IMG/VR virus record: IMGVR_UViG_3300044692_000019
Location: 1 to 40,365 of that record
DNA from: a virus
DNA: 40,365 nucleotides
Direction: 5' to 3' (one strand)
Part shown: positions 3,155-32,134 of the stretch, piece after piece
Numbering within the stretch: position 1 is the first letter of the stretch
How the letters are laid out: the number at the start of each line of letters is the position of its first letter
Position numbers and translations under genes: made by a program
Notes under the pieces: model-generated
Database searches by the model: none
Seen by the model: the letters and a program-made list of their open reading frames with translations, nothing else
Told to the model about the DNA's origin: nothing

Positions 3155-3841
3155 TCACAACCCCCTCGCCACCCAGACCGCCCGGCCTTCGATACGCACG
3201 GCGCGCTTGTCGATATCAAAATCCTCGAAGGCCGGATTTTCCGAAATCACCCGCCACATCCCATCGCCGGACGGTCGCAGCCTCTTTAGGCCATGGGCCC
3301 CGTCGATCGTGATCCAGTAATAGCCGTCGAAGCGCGATAGGTCGCGGACGGTCGTGTCGATCAGGAATCGGTCGTTTGACTGAAACACCGGCTCCATGCT
3401 CGTGCCGATGCCACGGATAATACGCAGCCGGTTCGGCGGTGCCAGCGTGATCGATCGCAGCATTGCCGCGTCGAATTTCACCGGCTCGCTTTCGACAAAA
3501 TCCTCGATCTCGGTTCCTGGGCCCATCGAGACGGATAGATCGAGCGCAACGATATCCACTGTCTCGCCAGCATCTGCGGTGCGGGTAGGGGGAGTGTCTG
3601 GTTCTGGCGGAGGCGATTCCACCGGCAGCGGGCCGCCTTCTAACAACCATTCGGCACTGACACCTAGTTTCTTGGCAAACTGAGCCGCCAATTTCGCAAA
3701 GCCATTCTGGCCATTTTCGTATGCCCGATACGTCGTCGGGTGGACTCCGACCACCTGCGCGAATTGCGCCTTGTCCCGGTAGCCCGCGCGGACGCGGGCC
3801 CATTCAAGGCGCTCATGCGCGGAATCAAGGCGATCAGACAT
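3155..3841 (-). CDS. Prophage repressor: XRE HTH plus S24 LexA/CI-type peptidase domain
   Basis: 228 aa. N-terminal HTH (about residues 8-65: RVRAGYRDKAQFAQVVGVHPTTYRAYENG), a Pro/Glu-rich linker (70-95), then an S24 domain with the serine in GIGTSMEP (Ser148) and the lysine in GLKRLRP (Lys187). The usual Ala-Gly cleavage site of these repressors reads VSMGPG here (Met106-Gly107); an Ala-Gly pair also exists at 91-92. The start at ATG 3841 gives the normal HTH N-terminus; in-frame codons further upstream reach into the operators. It is divergent from the Cro-like gene and should bind CGCTA-N7-TAGCG sites. RecA-stimulated self-cleavage is plausible but less certain given the altered site. Confidence 0.88.
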   Translation of the reverse strand: MSDRLDSAHERLEWARVRAGYRDKAQFAQVVGVHPTTYRAYENGQNGFAKLAAQFAKKLGVSAEWLLEGGPLPVESPPPEPDTPPTRTADAGETVDIVALDLSVSMGPGTEIEDFVESEPVKFDAAMLRSITLAPPNRLRIIRGIGTSMEPVFQSNDRFLIDTTVRDLSRFDGYYWITIDGAHGLKRLRPSGDGMWRVISENPAFEDFDIDKRAVRIEGRAVWVARGL

Positions 3842-23025: not shown

Positions 23026-23074
23026 TCATAGATTTGGTCGCGCCGGTGTCTACCCGGTGCGCGAGGAGCCGCGC

Positions 23075-25303
23075 ATGGGCAATCTTGCCAATCTGACGAC
23101 GACTTTTGCGATGGAAAGCGCGGCGTTCGTCAACGGCGCGGAAGTTTCGCGGGCCGCTTTGGGCCGGCTCACGCGACAGCTCGATCCCGCAGGGACGGCG
23201 CAGGCGAAGTTCAATCAGCAGACACGCGAGTTGAAGTCTGCGCTCGACGCTGGCGCCATCTCTCTCGACAAATATAGCGTTATGCTTAGCAACGCTGAGC
23301 GTCGCTTGGAGACCGTGATCGCGCGCCAGCAGACCGGAGTTCAATCGACCGGACAAATGCGCTCCGCGATGACCAACCTCTCTTACCAGGCGCAGGACAC
23401 CTTCACGCAGCTCAGCATGGGCGCGAACGTGTTCCAGGTGATCGCTATTCAGGGCGGCCAGGCGGCTGGTGCCTTTGCTACCGTAGAAGGTGCGGCAGGA
23501 AGCGTAGCTCGGTTCATGATCGGCCCTTGGGGATTGGCGATCACGGGCGCGATCCTGCTGCTCGGCGCGTTGACGAAGGATCACAAGGACGCCGCCGACG
23601 CCACAAAGAAGCATTCCGAAGCCGAGGACGCGCTGAAACAGGCTATGGACCGCCTGCACAATGCATCGGCGACGCAGCATCATGATACGCGTCAAGGGAT
23701 TCAAGACGACTTGGACGCTGCCGAGGCTGCGCGGAAACACGAATTGCGAGTGCGTGGCCTTCTCGCGGCGTGGTTGGAACGGGCGAAATTCAATCTTCAG
23801 CAACAGCGCGAGGCTGAGCGGGCAACCGGGGTGGTTCCGGCGTTTGGGCAACCGGCATCGCAGGATTTTGAGGGCCAGATTGCCGCCATCGAAGGCGCTC
23901 AGAAACTTAACGCCGCGAAGATTGCCCAAGCCAACGCCGATCTGGCGGCCGGAACGGCAAAACTTGCCCTTCGCGATGTGGCGGCGGCAACCGACAAAGC
24001 AACAGCGGCGACGCAGCAATACGAAGACGCCATCGATCGGTTGCAGCGCAAGTTCGAGAGCGGCGGCTTCGGAGACCCGCGCAGCTCCTCAGCGGTTGCC
24101 GCCTTCAAGGCCGCTGCCGAGGCGGCTACTCGGGCGAAAGACGCCACCCTCGCCGCGCTCGACGCAACCAAAAAAGCGGCAAACGACAACCGCCAGACGG
24201 GTCGCCAGATCAGCCTGCCCGAGGCCGAGGCGATCGTCAAAAGCATCGGCGGGACGATTACCAGCGCCACGCGGACGTTCGATCAGCAGGCGAAGCTCTA
24301 TCGGGCCTATCTGAATGGAACCGGCTCGCTCGCCGCAAAGCCCGGTCACAGCGATCACGAACTCGGCAACGCGCTCGATATCGCCAAGACGCCGGGCATG
24401 TCGCTCGCCAAAATCCGCGCGGCCTTCACCGAGGCGGGCGTCTCAATCAAGCAGCTTCTGGATGAGGGTAACCATTTTCATGTCGCGTGGAAGGCTGGCG
24501 CTGATCCCGCCATTCAGGCTTCGAAGGACGAAGCGGCGGCGATTCGGTTAATCGGCTTCGCGGCAAAGGGCACTAGTGATGCGCTCGCCGATATCAACAA
24601 GCACTTCAAACAATTGAACGATAACAGCAACGGGTTTGACGATATCGCCAAGGGCGCGGCAACTGCATTCGGGTCGGGGCAAGACATCGCCATCCAAAAT
24701 GAGCGCGATTTGCAGCAAGTCCGCGAAGGCCACATTCGGCAACTCGGAGACATCTACTACGATCTGTTTGACGGCGGAACGCGTCGAATTTGGCAGGATT
24801 TCGAGCGGATCGGGATGGATATAATCTCGAGGCTGCTCTCCGAGTGGACGATGAACGCGCTCATGCCGACTGCGGCGCAGCGGCGCGCCGGACAGAGCGG
24901 CGGTATCGGAAATATCTTTGGGGCAATCGGCCGCTTGTTCGGCGGCGGCGGTCCCGCCGTCGATATCGGCGCGGCCCGTGCCGGTGCGGATGCGGCCCTT
25001 GCGAGCATCCCGCATTTCGCGAACGGCGGGTCATTCCAGTTTGGTGGCCGGGGCGGAATCGACAAGAACATCCTGTCGCTGAATGGTTCGCCGATCGCGG
25101 CGGTCAGCCGCGGTGAGACGGCGACGATCGGCAACGGCCGGCGTGCTGCAAACGATCAGCCGATCGTGATCCACATCGTCGGCGAGGAAGGGGCAGCATT
25201 CGTTCCGCGGGTTGCGGCGATCAGCGGCATCACCTCGTCACAGTCGATCCAGATCGCGCAGAAAACGCAGATGAAGAAGGCGACGCGGAGACTCGGCCGG
25301 TGA
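23075..25303 (+). CDS. Tail tape measure protein with embedded M15 peptidase domain
   Basis: 742 aa from ATG 23075, with GAGGAG eight bases upstream; GTG 23057 is in frame. The N-terminal third is coiled coil, followed by MTNLSYQAQDTFTQLSMGANVFQVIAIQGGQAAGAF and a hydrophobic segment GPWGLAITGAILLLGALT, both typical of tape measures. A D-alanyl-D-alanine carboxypeptidase-like M15 domain follows: TITSATRTFDQQAKLY, GHSDHELGNALDI (His/Asp zinc ligands, about residues 425-435) and NHFHVAW (about 465). The C-terminal part is Gly-rich. It sets tail length and probably opens peptidoglycan during DNA entry. Confidence 0.92.
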   Translation: MGNLANLTTTFAMESAAFVNGAEVSRAALGRLTRQLDPAGTAQAKFNQQTRELKSALDAGAISLDKYSVMLSNAERRLETVIARQQTGVQSTGQMRSAMTNLSYQAQDTFTQLSMGANVFQVIAIQGGQAAGAFATVEGAAGSVARFMIGPWGLAITGAILLLGALTKDHKDAADATKKHSEAEDALKQAMDRLHNASATQHHDTRQGIQDDLDAAEAARKHELRVRGLLAAWLERAKFNLQQQREAERATGVVPAFGQPASQDFEGQIAAIEGAQKLNAAKIAQANADLAAGTAKLALRDVAAATDKATAATQQYEDAIDRLQRKFESGGFGDPRSSSAVAAFKAAAEAATRAKDATLAALDATKKAANDNRQTGRQISLPEAEAIVKSIGGTITSATRTFDQQAKLYRAYLNGTGSLAAKPGHSDHELGNALDIAKTPGMSLAKIRAAFTEAGVSIKQLLDEGNHFHVAWKAGADPAIQASKDEAAAIRLIGFAAKGTSDALADINKHFKQLNDNSNGFDDIAKGAATAFGSGQDIAIQNERDLQQVREGHIRQLGDIYYDLFDGGTRRIWQDFERIGMDIISRLLSEWTMNALMPTAAQRRAGQSGGIGNIFGAIGRLFGGGGPAVDIGAARAGADAALASIPHFANGGSFQFGGRGGIDKNILSLNGSPIAAVSRGETATIGNGRRAANDQPIVIHIVGEEGAAFVPRVAAISGITSSQSIQIAQKTQMKKATRRLGR

Positions 25304-26976: not shown

Positions 26977-29250
26977 ATGGCAAAGGTCGCTCAATACGCT
27001 GCAATCGCCATCTCGATTGCGGCGGCGATCCCGACTGGCGGCGGCTCGACGCTCTTGGCGGGCGCGCTCGGCGTGTCGGCGAGCACCGCCGGCACGATCG
27101 CCGCGGGCTTCACGGTTGCCACGAGTCTTGCCACCAGTCTGCTCGCCAAGAAGCCGAGCGGCGGCGGCTCGCAAACCAGTTGGTCAGCCGATCCGAACGC
27201 GAATATCCCGCTCGTTTTCGGGCGGACGGGCGTTGGCGGCAACGTCGTCTATCGCAAGGGCAGCGGAGACGCCGACAAGAACAAATATGAGACGGTGACG
27301 ACCGCTCTCTCGCTCGGCCCGATCGACGCTTACGAGACGCTGCTCTGCGATCGCAAAGCGGTGTCGTTCAGCGGGGCAAATGCCTCGACGAGTCCCTATA
27401 GCAATCGCCTGTGGATGGTGAAGCAGCTCGGCGCCTGCCCCGAGGCGGCGGCGCTGAACACGGGCGTCGGCACGAAGCCCGGGTGGACGAGCGCGCACAA
27501 GTTGTCTGGCCTCGCCGCCGATCAGGTGACGATGCTCTATGACGCCAAGGGCAAGAACACCTTCACGACCGAGCCGCAGATGCTGCGGATCATCCGCGGC
27601 CTGCTCTGCTATGACCCGCGGGAGGACAGCACCTATCCCGGCGGCTCGGGGCTGCAACGGGCCAACGATCAATCGACCTGGGCGTTCACCAAGAACCCTT
27701 ATATTCAGGGCCTGACCTTCGCGCTCGGCTGGTATCAGAACGGCAAGCGCCGCGGCGGCGCCGGGCAGCCGATCGACACGATCGACGTGGGCAGCTTCGT
27801 CGAATGCGCGAACATCGCCGATCTGAACGGCTGGACGAGCGGCGGCGGGCAATACACGACGGGCGACGACAAGTGGGAGGTGCTGAAGGCCATCCTTCAG
27901 GCTGGTGGCGGCGAGCCGATCCGCGATGGCGCGATGCTGTCGTGCATCATTCAGGCGCCGCGCGTATCGATCGCGACGATCGGCGCCGGCGATTTGATCG
28001 GCAAAGCCTCTGTGCCGCGGAGCCGCCCGCGCAAAGACCGACTGAACGGCGTCGTGCCGAAATATCGGACGGAACAGAATAATTGGGAGCAGGTATCCGG
28101 CACGGTGGCGCGGATCACCGATTTCGTGACGGCGGACGGCGGCGAGCGCACCAAGGAAATCGAGTATCCGCTGGTGCAGGTGGAGAGCGGCGGCACGGCC
28201 GATCAGCCGACGCAGCTCGCCGGCTATGATGTGGAAGCCTCGCGCGAGTGGATGCCGATCACGCTGCTGCTGAAACTACGCTGGATCGGATGCCGGACTG
28301 GCGATTGCATCGATTGTGGGGCCGATGATCTGGGGTTGGCGGAGAAGCTGCTCGTCATCGTCAAGCGCTCGCTCGACCCGAGCACGGGCGCGGTGACATT
28401 GACGGCGCGAACCGAGGACCCAGGCAAGCATGATCGGGTTTTCGCGCTGACGGGTGATTTGCCACCGACGACGACCTTCAATCGGCCCGATTATCCCGGC
28501 GATATCGCGCTCGGCGAGCAGGATGTCAGCACGGTCATCGCCAACAGTTTCCCGATCGGACTGACGATCACGGCCAGCGACGATGGTAGCGTTGTCATCA
28601 GCGATCACACGCGCCGCTACACGGATGGCTGGCCCGATGTTGCGGTGACGGGTGCGACGATCGCCAGCGGCGGCGCGGCGGGTGATTTCTTCGCGATCGG
28701 CTATGACGATCCTGATCGGCTTGGCGGCGCGGTGACGTATCAATTGTTCAGCGACGACATCGACGCGCGCGTCTCGCCGGATCATCCGGGGCGGCATTAT
28801 GTGGGCTATTTCACTGTGCCGACCGCAGGCAGCCCGCCGTCGAGCGGTGGCGGGGCGACGCCGCCCGGCGGGGCGTGCGTGACGACGGATACGCCGATCA
28901 TGATGGCGGATGGCTCGACCAAGCCAGCGGGAGAGATCGCCGTCGGTGATTTGATCCGCACCCGCCACGAAGCGCGGCTGACAGCGCCCGGCGGCGGCTG
29001 GGGCGTCTATCCGGTCGAAGCGGTGGCGATCGTGCCGGATCAACCGCTTTATTCGACGACGATCGGCGGGAAGGCGCTGCGCGGCACCGAAGATCACCAA
29101 GTCTATGTCGAGGGCGGCTGGATGCGGCTGGGCGATATCGGCGCGGCGGCGGGTAGCGGCGACGTAGTGAAGATGACCGTCACTGGCGCGCACACCTATG
29201 TCTCGAACGGAATCCTCTCGCACAACCTGAAGCAGAACGAGCCGGTCTAG
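26977..29250 (+). CDS. Tail-tip (J-like) host-specificity protein with C-terminal Hint domain
   Basis: 757 aa. Residues about 1-50 form an Ala/Gly-rich hydrophobic start, followed by SWSADPNANIPLVFGRTGVGGNVVYRKGSGD and the tip-attachment region typical of gpJ-like hub proteins. The last about 120 residues form an intein-like Hint fold: block A GGACVTTDTPIMMADGS (Cys634), block B LRGTEDHQVYV (Thr704, His707), block F AHTYVSNG, and ending SHN (His749-Asn750) followed by LKQNEPV. The residue after Asn750 is Leu rather than Cys, Ser or Thr, so ordinary splicing is not expected. C-terminal or N-terminal cleavage, as in bacterial intein-like domains, is possible. Confidence 0.85.
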   Translation: MAKVAQYAAIAISIAAAIPTGGGSTLLAGALGVSASTAGTIAAGFTVATSLATSLLAKKPSGGGSQTSWSADPNANIPLVFGRTGVGGNVVYRKGSGDADKNKYETVTTALSLGPIDAYETLLCDRKAVSFSGANASTSPYSNRLWMVKQLGACPEAAALNTGVGTKPGWTSAHKLSGLAADQVTMLYDAKGKNTFTTEPQMLRIIRGLLCYDPREDSTYPGGSGLQRANDQSTWAFTKNPYIQGLTFALGWYQNGKRRGGAGQPIDTIDVGSFVECANIADLNGWTSGGGQYTTGDDKWEVLKAILQAGGGEPIRDGAMLSCIIQAPRVSIATIGAGDLIGKASVPRSRPRKDRLNGVVPKYRTEQNNWEQVSGTVARITDFVTADGGERTKEIEYPLVQVESGGTADQPTQLAGYDVEASREWMPITLLLKLRWIGCRTGDCIDCGADDLGLAEKLLVIVKRSLDPSTGAVTLTARTEDPGKHDRVFALTGDLPPTTTFNRPDYPGDIALGEQDVSTVIANSFPIGLTITASDDGSVVISDHTRRYTDGWPDVAVTGATIASGGAAGDFFAIGYDDPDRLGGAVTYQLFSDDIDARVSPDHPGRHYVGYFTVPTAGSPPSSGGGATPPGGACVTTDTPIMMADGSTKPAGEIAVGDLIRTRHEARLTAPGGGWGVYPVEAVAIVPDQPLYSTTIGGKALRGTEDHQVYVEGGWMRLGDIGAAAGSGDVVKMTVTGAHTYVSNGILSHNLKQNEPV

Positions 29251-29275: not shown

Positions 29276-32134
29276 ATGGCACTTTCGGCGTGTCTGCCCC
29301 TTGCGGTGGACCGATACGGCGCGGCTGTCCGCACGGTCATTATTCGCGGCCTCGATCTGACGGGCGTGACGATGCGGGCGCAAGTGCGGCTTCGGCCCGA
29401 CACGCCCGGCGATCCGCTGATCGATTTGGAGATGGGTGCGAACACCAGCGCGGAAGGGCTCTACCTCGTTTCGGCGGTGGCGGACGACACCTATGGAACG
29501 ATCTCGACCGTTCAGATCAGGATCAACGAGACGACTCTCGAAGGCCTGCCCTACGCGGGCGAGCTCGGTGACTCTTCGACGTTCGCCTGGGATTGGCAGG
29601 CCACGATCGGGGGGGATAAGCGGCGTCTAGTTTATGGCGATTTCGTCGTTCTTCCCGGTGTCACCGGCGCAGATAGCGCGCCAGCGGATCGTCCGGCTGG
29701 AACCGGCACCCCGTCGAGCCCGACGACGTGGAGCACCGCGGTGCTCACGTTCGGGACCGAGACGGTCGAGATTACGATCGACGGCGCGGACATCCTCGCG
29801 CGCGCCGAGACGGCTGCCGTGCAGGCCGAAGCCGCCGCGGAAGCAATTCCGACCTCCAGCTCGCAGAACCGCTGGTATGACGCGTGTTTCCGCGCGCTGC
29901 GCGACGCCAACCCGTCCAACACGGCCGCCGCCAGCCTGAGCCTCGCTGGCAAGGTGCGGGTGGGATCGGGCGCGGCGGACCTGACCTGGGACGCGCCCGC
30001 TGCGCCGTTCAACGCGCCCGCGGTAATCATCGACGCGATTGCTGATTTCTATCACTATTACAGCGATGGCGCTTTCCTCGCCGGCAAGTCGCTAACGCCT
30101 TCAGTAGGCGTGAACATCCCGACCGGCACAACCTACACGGCCGAGCTTTTCATTCGCGTCGGCTATGCCGGATCGGTAGTGGCTTCGGGCGCCGTCGTGA
30201 CGGTCGTCGGGACCGGGGCATATCAGCAGGTCGACCTTCCATCGATCGTCAACGTGGCGAGCGGACAAGCGCTATCGATTCGCCTCCTTCGCACCGTCGG
30301 CACTGGCAAGGCGAAGGTGCTGGCGCTTCAGGCAGTGCCGGGCACGCTGGCGCGGCCGATCGCCGAGGACGTGGCGAGCCGCTACCTCGTCGACAAGGCG
30401 AATACGGCGGCGGGCGCGGCGAACGCGGCGGCGACGACCGCCAGCGGTAAGGCCGATGCAGCGTCCACGCTGGCGAACCGGATCGGCGTCAACCTGCTCA
30501 GCGACCCGACGCTCAAGCAGGCGAGCCGTGGCCGGGTGACATATGGCGCGCCGCTCGATCTCGACCCGGCCAACCCGCTCGGCGGCGGATCGGTCACCTC
30601 GGTCGGCACACTAATTCGCTACGATGTCGATCTGGCCGACACCCCGTTCAAACCGGGAGACACGATCAACATCCGCGCGCTGGTCAATGCGGCGGTGACG
30701 GTGAGCTTGACGATCGAGTGGTATAACGGGGCCACTTATCTCGGCAACGTCGCAACGACCGCGAACGGCCTCACCGACAAGACGCTGAACACGACGATCC
30801 CGGCCACCGCCACCAAATGGCGGGTCGATGTCTCGGGCGGTGACAGCGTGCTTTATGGCGTTGCGGCCTATTATGCGCCGGTGACGCCGGCCTTCGTTGA
30901 CGCGCCGGTCCTCAAGGATCGCCGCGAGATCAACGGCCGCGTCGTCGGGCGCAAGATCGTGGTGTTCGGTGACAGCATCCCGGCTGACACGATCGACCTC
31001 TCGACGCTGCCCTACCAGACCTATGACACGATCCTCGCGCGGCTGCTCGACGCCACGGTCGTCAACGGTGCGATCGGCGGCACGACGCTTTCGCTGCGCG
31101 CCGACGATGCCAATTATTCGGCCGTCTCCACATCGTCGATCGTCTCCGCCATCGCGGCGGCGGCATCGGGTGATGCGAATGCATGGGATGACATCGACAC
31201 GGCCGCGACCGCGCTCGGCTATCCGGTGCCGGACAAGATCGCCGCGATCAAGGCCATCGACTGGAGCACGGTCGATACGTTGCTCATCAAGCATGGCACC
31301 AACGATTTCGGCGCGGCGAATGCCGGCAACGGCGTGCCGCTCGGCGCCGATACCGACGCGACCGGCGCGACGGTCAAGGGCGCGGTCAACCAGGTCGTTC
31401 GCGACGTGCACGAATGGTATCCGCACCTGAAGATCGTCTTTGCGACGCCGCTGTTCCGCGGCCGTTTCGCCGGCAAGGGATCGGGCTTCGCGACGATCGA
31501 CGGCACGCTGCTCACGGTATCCAGCTACGCCGGCGATCCGATTGCGTTGGGGCAGTCGATCCTGATGGCTGGCGTGTCTCGGCGGGCGCTCATTTCGGGG
31601 ATCGGAACGGGCACTGGCGGCGTCGGCACCTATGCGCTCGACAAAGACTGCGGCGTGGTCGGCGGAACCTCGACGGCCTCATCGATCGCCGGGACGGTGT
31701 TGACGATCGGCGGCACGGTCGGGGGTGCGTTCGCCGTCGGCGATCAGATCACGGGCACTGGCGTGACATTCGGCACCCGGATCGCCGCGCAGCTCAGCGG
31801 CACGGCCGGCGGCGCGGGCACCTATCGTGTCTATCCCGATCAGACGGTCGCCTCGACCGCGATCAGCAGCGGGCACTTCATCAACTATGATCCGACGACG
31901 AACAGCGACGCACACCCCAACAATGCCGGGCTGAAGCTCGCCGATTATGCCGCAGCCATCCGTGACCGCGCGGCGGCGAACCATGCGCCGGTGATCGATG
32001 CGTTCGCCAAGGCCGGCTGGAACGAGATGACCGTGACGCGCCTCTCCGAAGATGGGCTGCACCCCTCGCCGCGGGTCGGGCTCTACCAGGACGCGGAGTT
32101 CGACGCGGCCGAGCTGGCGCGGCTGAGCTACTGA
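29276..32134 (+). CDS. Large receptor-binding tail protein with SGNH-hydrolase domain
   Basis: 952 aa. The N-terminal roughly 130 residues are a beta domain, probably attaching to the tip (VRTVIIRGLDLTGVTMRAQVRLRPDT). A long beta-rich/coiled-coil stalk follows. An SGNH/GDSL esterase domain begins near residue 555: block I VVFGDSIPAD (Ser567), block II NGAIGGTT, block III KHGTNDFG (Asn676), block V EDGLHPSPR (Asp926, His929). About 170 residues inserted between blocks III and V carry two related repeats (GTLLTVSSYAG... and GTVLTIGGTVGG...), likely carbohydrate binding. It probably deacylates a surface polysaccharide at adsorption. Confidence 0.88.
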   Translation: MALSACLPLAVDRYGAAVRTVIIRGLDLTGVTMRAQVRLRPDTPGDPLIDLEMGANTSAEGLYLVSAVADDTYGTISTVQIRINETTLEGLPYAGELGDSSTFAWDWQATIGGDKRRLVYGDFVVLPGVTGADSAPADRPAGTGTPSSPTTWSTAVLTFGTETVEITIDGADILARAETAAVQAEAAAEAIPTSSSQNRWYDACFRALRDANPSNTAAASLSLAGKVRVGSGAADLTWDAPAAPFNAPAVIIDAIADFYHYYSDGAFLAGKSLTPSVGVNIPTGTTYTAELFIRVGYAGSVVASGAVVTVVGTGAYQQVDLPSIVNVASGQALSIRLLRTVGTGKAKVLALQAVPGTLARPIAEDVASRYLVDKANTAAGAANAAATTASGKADAASTLANRIGVNLLSDPTLKQASRGRVTYGAPLDLDPANPLGGGSVTSVGTLIRYDVDLADTPFKPGDTINIRALVNAAVTVSLTIEWYNGATYLGNVATTANGLTDKTLNTTIPATATKWRVDVSGGDSVLYGVAAYYAPVTPAFVDAPVLKDRREINGRVVGRKIVVFGDSIPADTIDLSTLPYQTYDTILARLLDATVVNGAIGGTTLSLRADDANYSAVSTSSIVSAIAAAASGDANAWDDIDTAATALGYPVPDKIAAIKAIDWSTVDTLLIKHGTNDFGAANAGNGVPLGADTDATGATVKGAVNQVVRDVHEWYPHLKIVFATPLFRGRFAGKGSGFATIDGTLLTVSSYAGDPIALGQSILMAGVSRRALISGIGTGTGGVGTYALDKDCGVVGGTSTASSIAGTVLTIGGTVGGAFAVGDQITGTGVTFGTRIAAQLSGTAGGAGTYRVYPDQTVASTAISSGHFINYDPTTNSDAHPNNAGLKLADYAAAIRDRAAANHAPVIDAFAKAGWNEMTVTRLSEDGLHPSPRVGLYQDAEFDAAELARLSY

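Follow-up and report, generated by a model that had tools for sequence, protein, structure and literature searches.

The described systems that appear closest, by sequence, to the domain reported here are the type A BIL domains, in which the His-Asn pair is kept and the +1 nucleophile is absent; these mostly cleave, and they are also capable of ligation, with the C-fragment supplying its free amine (PMC4031507), cleavage being described as the predominant outcome elsewhere as well (PMC7664689). The description of this class gives the +1 residue as variable or non-nucleophilic and does not mention lysine, in contrast to the Hint of phage tail proteins (tail Hint), where a lysine at +1 or +2 is strictly kept. 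The BIL2 domain of Tetrahymena BUBL1 (6y75, 6tmm) is eukaryotic, is flanked by ubiquitin-like domains and has a Zn-dependent switch; it has been reported to use a Lys epsilon-amine as acceptor, forming an isopeptide (PMC8616854), but its lysine lies in the downstream ubiquitin-like domain, whereas that of the tail Hint stands directly behind the Asn. Class 1 mini-inteins, such as Ssp DnaB, Npu DnaB and gp41-1, share with the tail Hint the fold, the set of Cys1, His and His-Asn, and the occurrence of empty sites in close relatives, although inteins need a Cys, Ser or Thr at +1 and occupy conserved essential sites, while the tail Hint carries Ile, Leu or Lys there and sits in a variable tail. 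Hedgehog Hog domains differ in having no His-Asn C-cleavage and a sterol-binding region behind, unlike the tail Hint with its invariant His-Asn and no further domain. The S74 fold is not known to be related to the Hint fold. The S74 or intramolecular chaperone autocleavage domains of tailspikes resemble the tail Hint in role only, as self-removing C-terminal domains of tail proteins, their Ser-Lys chemistry being unrelated (PMC7824862).

The window, that is, the whole stretch of DNA analysed here (40,365 bases), is an IMG/VR virus record, and the relatives of its phage are prophages of Sphingomonas and its kin. The features to which the following refers, all on the plus strand, are these:

26977 to 29250, plus strand: carrier gene, a J-like tail-tip hub of 757 amino acids, matching phrog_5616 over residues 7-484, and phrog_31
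28525 to 28818, plus strand: beta-rich pre-Hint domain, about residues 517-614 (alignment, scan and AF2 model)
28828 to 28875, plus strand: flexible Gly/Pro linker GSPPSSGGGATPPGGA, residues 618-633 (sequence and low model pLDDT)
28876 to 29226, plus strand: Hint domain, residues 634-750 (profiles, AF2 model and fold search)
28876 to 28878, plus strand: Cys634, the block A nucleophile, invariant (family alignment)
29086 to 29097, plus strand: block B, Thr704-x-x-His707, with the His invariant (family alignment)
29188 to 29211, plus strand: block F, AHTYVSNG, residues 738-745 (family alignment)
29221 to 29226, plus strand: block G, His749-Asn750, both invariant (family alignment)
29227 to 29247, plus strand: C-flank LKQNEPV, with which the host protein ends; Lys752, at +2 (29230-29232), is the conserved lysine (family sequences and comparison with a Hint-less allele)
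29276 to 32134, plus strand: tail fibre downstream of the hub, with a GDSL lipase domain at residues 563-733 (domain match)

The original prediction had read the last 124 residues of this hub as a bacterial intein-like or Hedgehog-type Hint domain, and each of the positions it named, namely Cys634, Thr704 and His707, AHTYVSNG, His749-Asn750-Leu751 and the seven residues that remain, is borne out. The profile search it proposed likewise recovers a Hint, with TIGR01443 (intein_Cterm, NCBIfam) above its cut-off (20.7 bits against 15.6) and TIGR01445 (intein_Nterm, NCBIfam) just below (22.3 against 24.5), while PF05203 and PF14890 match the hub C-terminus weakly and at the right ends. Against solved structures, the family profile finds Tetrahymena BIL2 first (E 4.9e-11), then an intein and then the Clostridium thermocellum BIL, so that the E-values favour BIL2 and 2lwy, among others, with PDB structures as the only reference BILs compared. 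The AlphaFold2 model of the domain (pLDDT 91.4, pTM 0.85) has 6y75 BIL2 as its best PDB match in Foldseek (E 6.6e-9), making BIL2 the best match by both profile and fold, and the best 50 PDB matches are all of the Hint fold, comprising inteins, BIL, Hedgehog and Vint. The fold is accompanied by blocks A, B, F and G, with Cys1, the block B His and the terminal His-Asn, and residues 634-750 are almost certainly a Hint domain whose active site is intact. All 40 representatives (<70% identity) share Cys1, the block B His, Trp715, Tyr741, the penultimate His and the Asn without exception; the Cys, His, Asn and Lys codons of the family vary silently and dN/dS ranges from 0.07 to 0.30 across 14 pairs, indicating that purifying selection acts on the protein. 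The Hint fold, Cys1, the block B His, the terminal His-Asn and the lack of a conserved Cys, Ser or Thr at +1 (Leu751 in the window) are shared with type A BILs such as that of C. thermocellum (2lwy), following the sequence criteria of PMC4031507, so the predicted affinity holds with type A BIL as the closest class, and the tail Hint would be expected to work like one. The difference lies in its setting, on phage tail proteins and mostly at the extreme C-terminus.

The assignment of the carrier as a J-like hub, also made beforehand, agrees with the PHROG profiles of its body (phrog_5616, E 2.5e-78; phrog_31 'central tail fiber J', E 5.5e-15) and with the placement of the gene after the tape measure and distal tail genes. 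The pre-Hint domain is common to the Hint-bearing hubs and some Hint-less ones; queried as a single protein, it gave no match in the scan, whereas the alignment query did. It also ends a set of short proteins of 211-233 amino acids, without a Hint, on unrelated-looking contigs (L157-L162). In an AF2 model of the last 253 residues of the window hub, hub residues 624-631 (model residues 120-127) have a pLDDT below 50 and lie between two folded domains.

At this site, the Hint is a discrete presence/absence element of 348 nt. The hub of L137 lacks the Hint while keeping pre-Hint domain, linker and tail, and ends in PPGGQ-YN-KMNQPEQPSQV, compared with PPGGQ, the Hint and IKMNQPEQPSQV in L003, L005 and L007; the 11-residue tail KMNQPEQPSQV is identical in the Hint-less and Hint-bearing hubs, and therefore the residues behind the Asn belong to the host protein as its C-terminal end. 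In the DNA of L137 exactly 348 nt are missing, from within the Cys1 codon to within the Asn codon, with the T of the former joined to the AC of the latter, and the flanks, 2.8 kb preceding and 0.86 kb following the site, are collinear with those of L005 at 83% identity. An empty allele at the insertion site, as known for class 1 inteins, is therefore found here, exact at the nucleotide level in one hub allele only (L137), and the earlier statement that denied a splicing intein within a host protein was too strong, given an insertion with a real, if short, C-flank. The +1 nucleophile of class 1 inteins is nevertheless missing, with Leu751 in the window and only two Thr among 93 Hints. The hubs closest to that of the window by their core, L112 and L113 (76% and 74%), have neither the pre-Hint domain nor the Hint. 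Close relatives also differ repeatedly in length by about 350-400 nt at another place, the start of the hub or the stretch immediately before it, as between L003 (near 3785) and L004 (near 3378-3769).

The Hint of the window finds 20 loci in IMG/VR, including two ordinary inteins with Thr or Ser at +1 in terminase-like genes (L020, 737-2458; L021, around 6001), which match weakly; an alignment of the Hint finds 154 confirmed loci, of which 80 were kept, and six more come from GTDB genomes (five Sphingomonas, one Stakelama). In the set of 93 extracted sequences, which takes in the podovirus loci, the domain measures 108-131 residues. By PHROG matches, the carriers are J hubs (phrog_5616), the front part of phrog_376 podovirus tail proteins, a phrog_2048 tail protein (L046) and lambda-gpI-like proteins (phrog_32, L070), and the Hint is also internal in large proteins of other phages (phrog_358, phrog_24848); every carrier assignable to a protein family is a tail protein. 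Most copies sit behind a Pro- or Gly-rich tether, and the C-terminal carriers have 4-14 residues behind the Hint, the window hub having seven. A gpI-type phage (L242, 2241-6984) bears two Hints, one on gpI and the other on a 700-residue tail-region protein downstream of J that ends in GGGGGGGSDGSGY, the Hint (C...SHN) and AKPRE, while two large freshwater phages (L015, 5980-6825; L078, 4983-5807) have a tandem pair in one protein, joined by Pro-rich or short linkers. The tree sets a clade of gpI and large-phage Hints apart from one of hub, podovirus and phrog_2048 Hints (98% SH-aLRT) and requires eight carrier changes (minimum four), many of its inner forks being weak. The presence of the Hint on several unrelated tail proteins, together with its clean absence from close relatives, makes it look like a module for protein processing that is widespread among phage tails yet optional. 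In host genomes it is scarce, with four in 301 in the family to which the host of L023 belongs, one of the four being an ordinary toxin-type Hint, and a plasmid search returned no match. In the phage collection this Hint occurs only in the metagenomic record MT835519.1, which carries no annotation, and in none of the isolated, annotated phages; among the PHROGs, no family matches the Hint itself strongly. A description of a Hint family of tail proteins was not found in the open-access literature, though viral database entries named simply 'Hint' do exist.

In the podoviruses, the phrog_376 protein of the nine loci found first is split over two ORFs, with the Hint on the front one; the ORFs overlap by 1 or 4 nt in eight loci, are 3 nt apart in one, and when joined align collinearly with the homologues that BPP-1 (bbp13) and HTVC010P encode as one gene. 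A scan with the front part gives 23 split genes with the Hint, 31 split genes without it and nine unsplit genes, as grouped by eye, since the motif of the script missed seven Hint-bearing rows. The 31 Hint-less split genes indicate that the split is independent of the Hint and rule out the Hint as its cause. The position of the Hint is constant, in the Gly-rich C-terminal tail of the front ORF, where DNA pairs of 65-73% identity show Hint-sized gaps. The split itself has one fixed position, whether a Hint is present or not (L012, 1044-3865; L013, 5329-8138; L163-L233) and is frequent in alphaproteobacterial-type phages, the gene being single in BPP-1 and HTVC010P.

Behind the Asn, the +1 residue of the 93 Hints is Ile in 41, Lys in 23, Leu in 15, Tyr and Ala in five each, and Val and Thr in two each, but of the 92 that can be scored, 91 have a Lys at one of the positions +1 and +2, and none has an Arg instead; the sole exception is the first of the two tandem Hints in L078. 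This position formed no part of the search patterns that yielded the loci, and two genome loci found later (HN followed by VKADG or by IKIVREHEA) have the lysine as well. It holds in all 12 clusters formed at <50% identity, with shared ancestry as a caveat, and the tail beyond it shows no conservation. By composition, the Hint domain has 3.3% Lys and 5.5% Arg, and the last 12 residues of the Hint-less podovirus proteins have 2.1% and 6.9%. A leftover of the hub tail can be dismissed as the origin of the lysine, since Hint-less tails have Arg or neither residue more often than Lys, and since the lysine also occurs on unrelated carriers. The occurrence of Lys, and never of Arg, at either of these two positions behind the Asn would fit a chemically needed amine better than plain charge. 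Tentatively, the lysine may be the acyl acceptor; alternatively, it could assist the cyclisation of the Asn or stabilise the fold. It is possible, with no greater confidence, that the tail Hints constitute a Lys-dependent class on unrelated tail proteins, in which the Lys epsilon-amine replaces the Cys, Ser or Thr at +1 and forms an isopeptide with no external enzyme.

The Hint of the hub probably processes itself at Cys634. The preferred reading, with a probability of about 0.4, is that a type-A-BIL-like Hint, inserted where the C-terminal tail of the hub is flexible, would excise itself and re-join the tail to an amine, a chemistry drawn by analogy from the amine ligation of type A BILs (PMC4031507) and the Lys isopeptide of BIL2 (PMC8616854). 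Cys634 would attack the carbonyl of Ala633 in an N-S acyl shift helped by His707, turning the hub C-terminus into a thioester; Asn750 would then cyclise with the help of His749, cutting off the LKQNEPV tail, and an amine would resolve the thioester, the likeliest candidates being the side-chain epsilon-amine of Lys752 and the alpha-amine freed on Leu751. As a net result, the Hint would leave and the hub would retain a short tail resembling that of the Hint-less alleles. What speaks against the re-joining is that type A BILs mainly cleave (PMC4031507) and that a tail of seven residues, unconserved beyond its lysine, offers no obvious benefit.

Cleavage alone would need only water to resolve the thioester, the mature hub ending at Ala633 and the Hint being a C-terminal domain that can be shed, which might, for instance, aid folding or assembly and resemble S74 in role. 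This is conceivable though on balance doubtful: cleavage predominates in type A BILs (PMC4031507, PMC7664689), and the C-terminal position on tail proteins parallels the S74 domains (PMC7824862), but the strict keeping of the Asn and of the +1/+2 Lys would be left unexplained, and the Hint-less alleles of close relatives speak against a required chaperone.

The hub thioester might instead be attacked by an amine from outside the hub, on a different virion protein or on the host surface, giving a covalent crosslink in assembly or adsorption. BIL2 is reported to dispense its ubiquitin-like domain onto other substrates (PMC8616854), and the flexible tether and the restriction of family-identified carriers to tail proteins would suit such a conjugation; it is nevertheless unlikely, because the adjacent Lys would tend to consume the thioester in cis and the neighbourhood comparison shows no single partner gene conserved beside all carriers. 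An obligate crosslink to the downstream fibre is disfavoured in particular, since the N-terminal portion of the fibre, of about 174 residues, recurs behind hubs with and without a Hint, the latter being L109, L112 and L113, and the downstream fibre therefore does not require the Hint.

The same self-excision could also belong to a neutral or selfish intein-like passenger without benefit to the phage, persisting because it removes itself from a permissive tail. Presence and absence at one site and the movement of the domain between carriers in the tree are consistent with this, yet the domain, of 108-131 residues, has no homing endonuclease, a C-terminal site would need no excision, and tail proteins only, repeatedly, are occupied, all of which makes it rather improbable. 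An inactive Hint fold retained for a structural or binding role in the tail tip, as its fusion to an adsorption protein might suggest, is highly improbable given the complete conservation of Cys1, both His and the Asn despite wide divergence. Toxin release of the PT-HINT kind is rejected, since the C-terminal carriers have neither a toxin nor any other domain behind the Hint, although 13 of 48 members match the Pfam PT-HINT model weakly.

If the tail Hint is active, an intein-like processing module would have been recruited by several unrelated tail proteins in several phage types, alleles of one gene with and without the Hint would serve as natural controls, and small ligation tools without need for an extein nucleophile could result. 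The strict lysine yields a precise chemical prediction, namely resolution through an amide or isopeptide instead of a Cys, Ser or Thr at +1, and the old question of what use BIL-type domains are to their owners becomes testable where virions can be purified and weighed. Two further enzymatic domains are seen in the tail genes of the window: the tape measure protein (23057-25303) has a VanY-type D-Ala-D-Ala carboxypeptidase domain at residues 399-460, and the GDSL lipase domain of the fibre downstream of the hub is possibly a surface-polysaccharide esterase.
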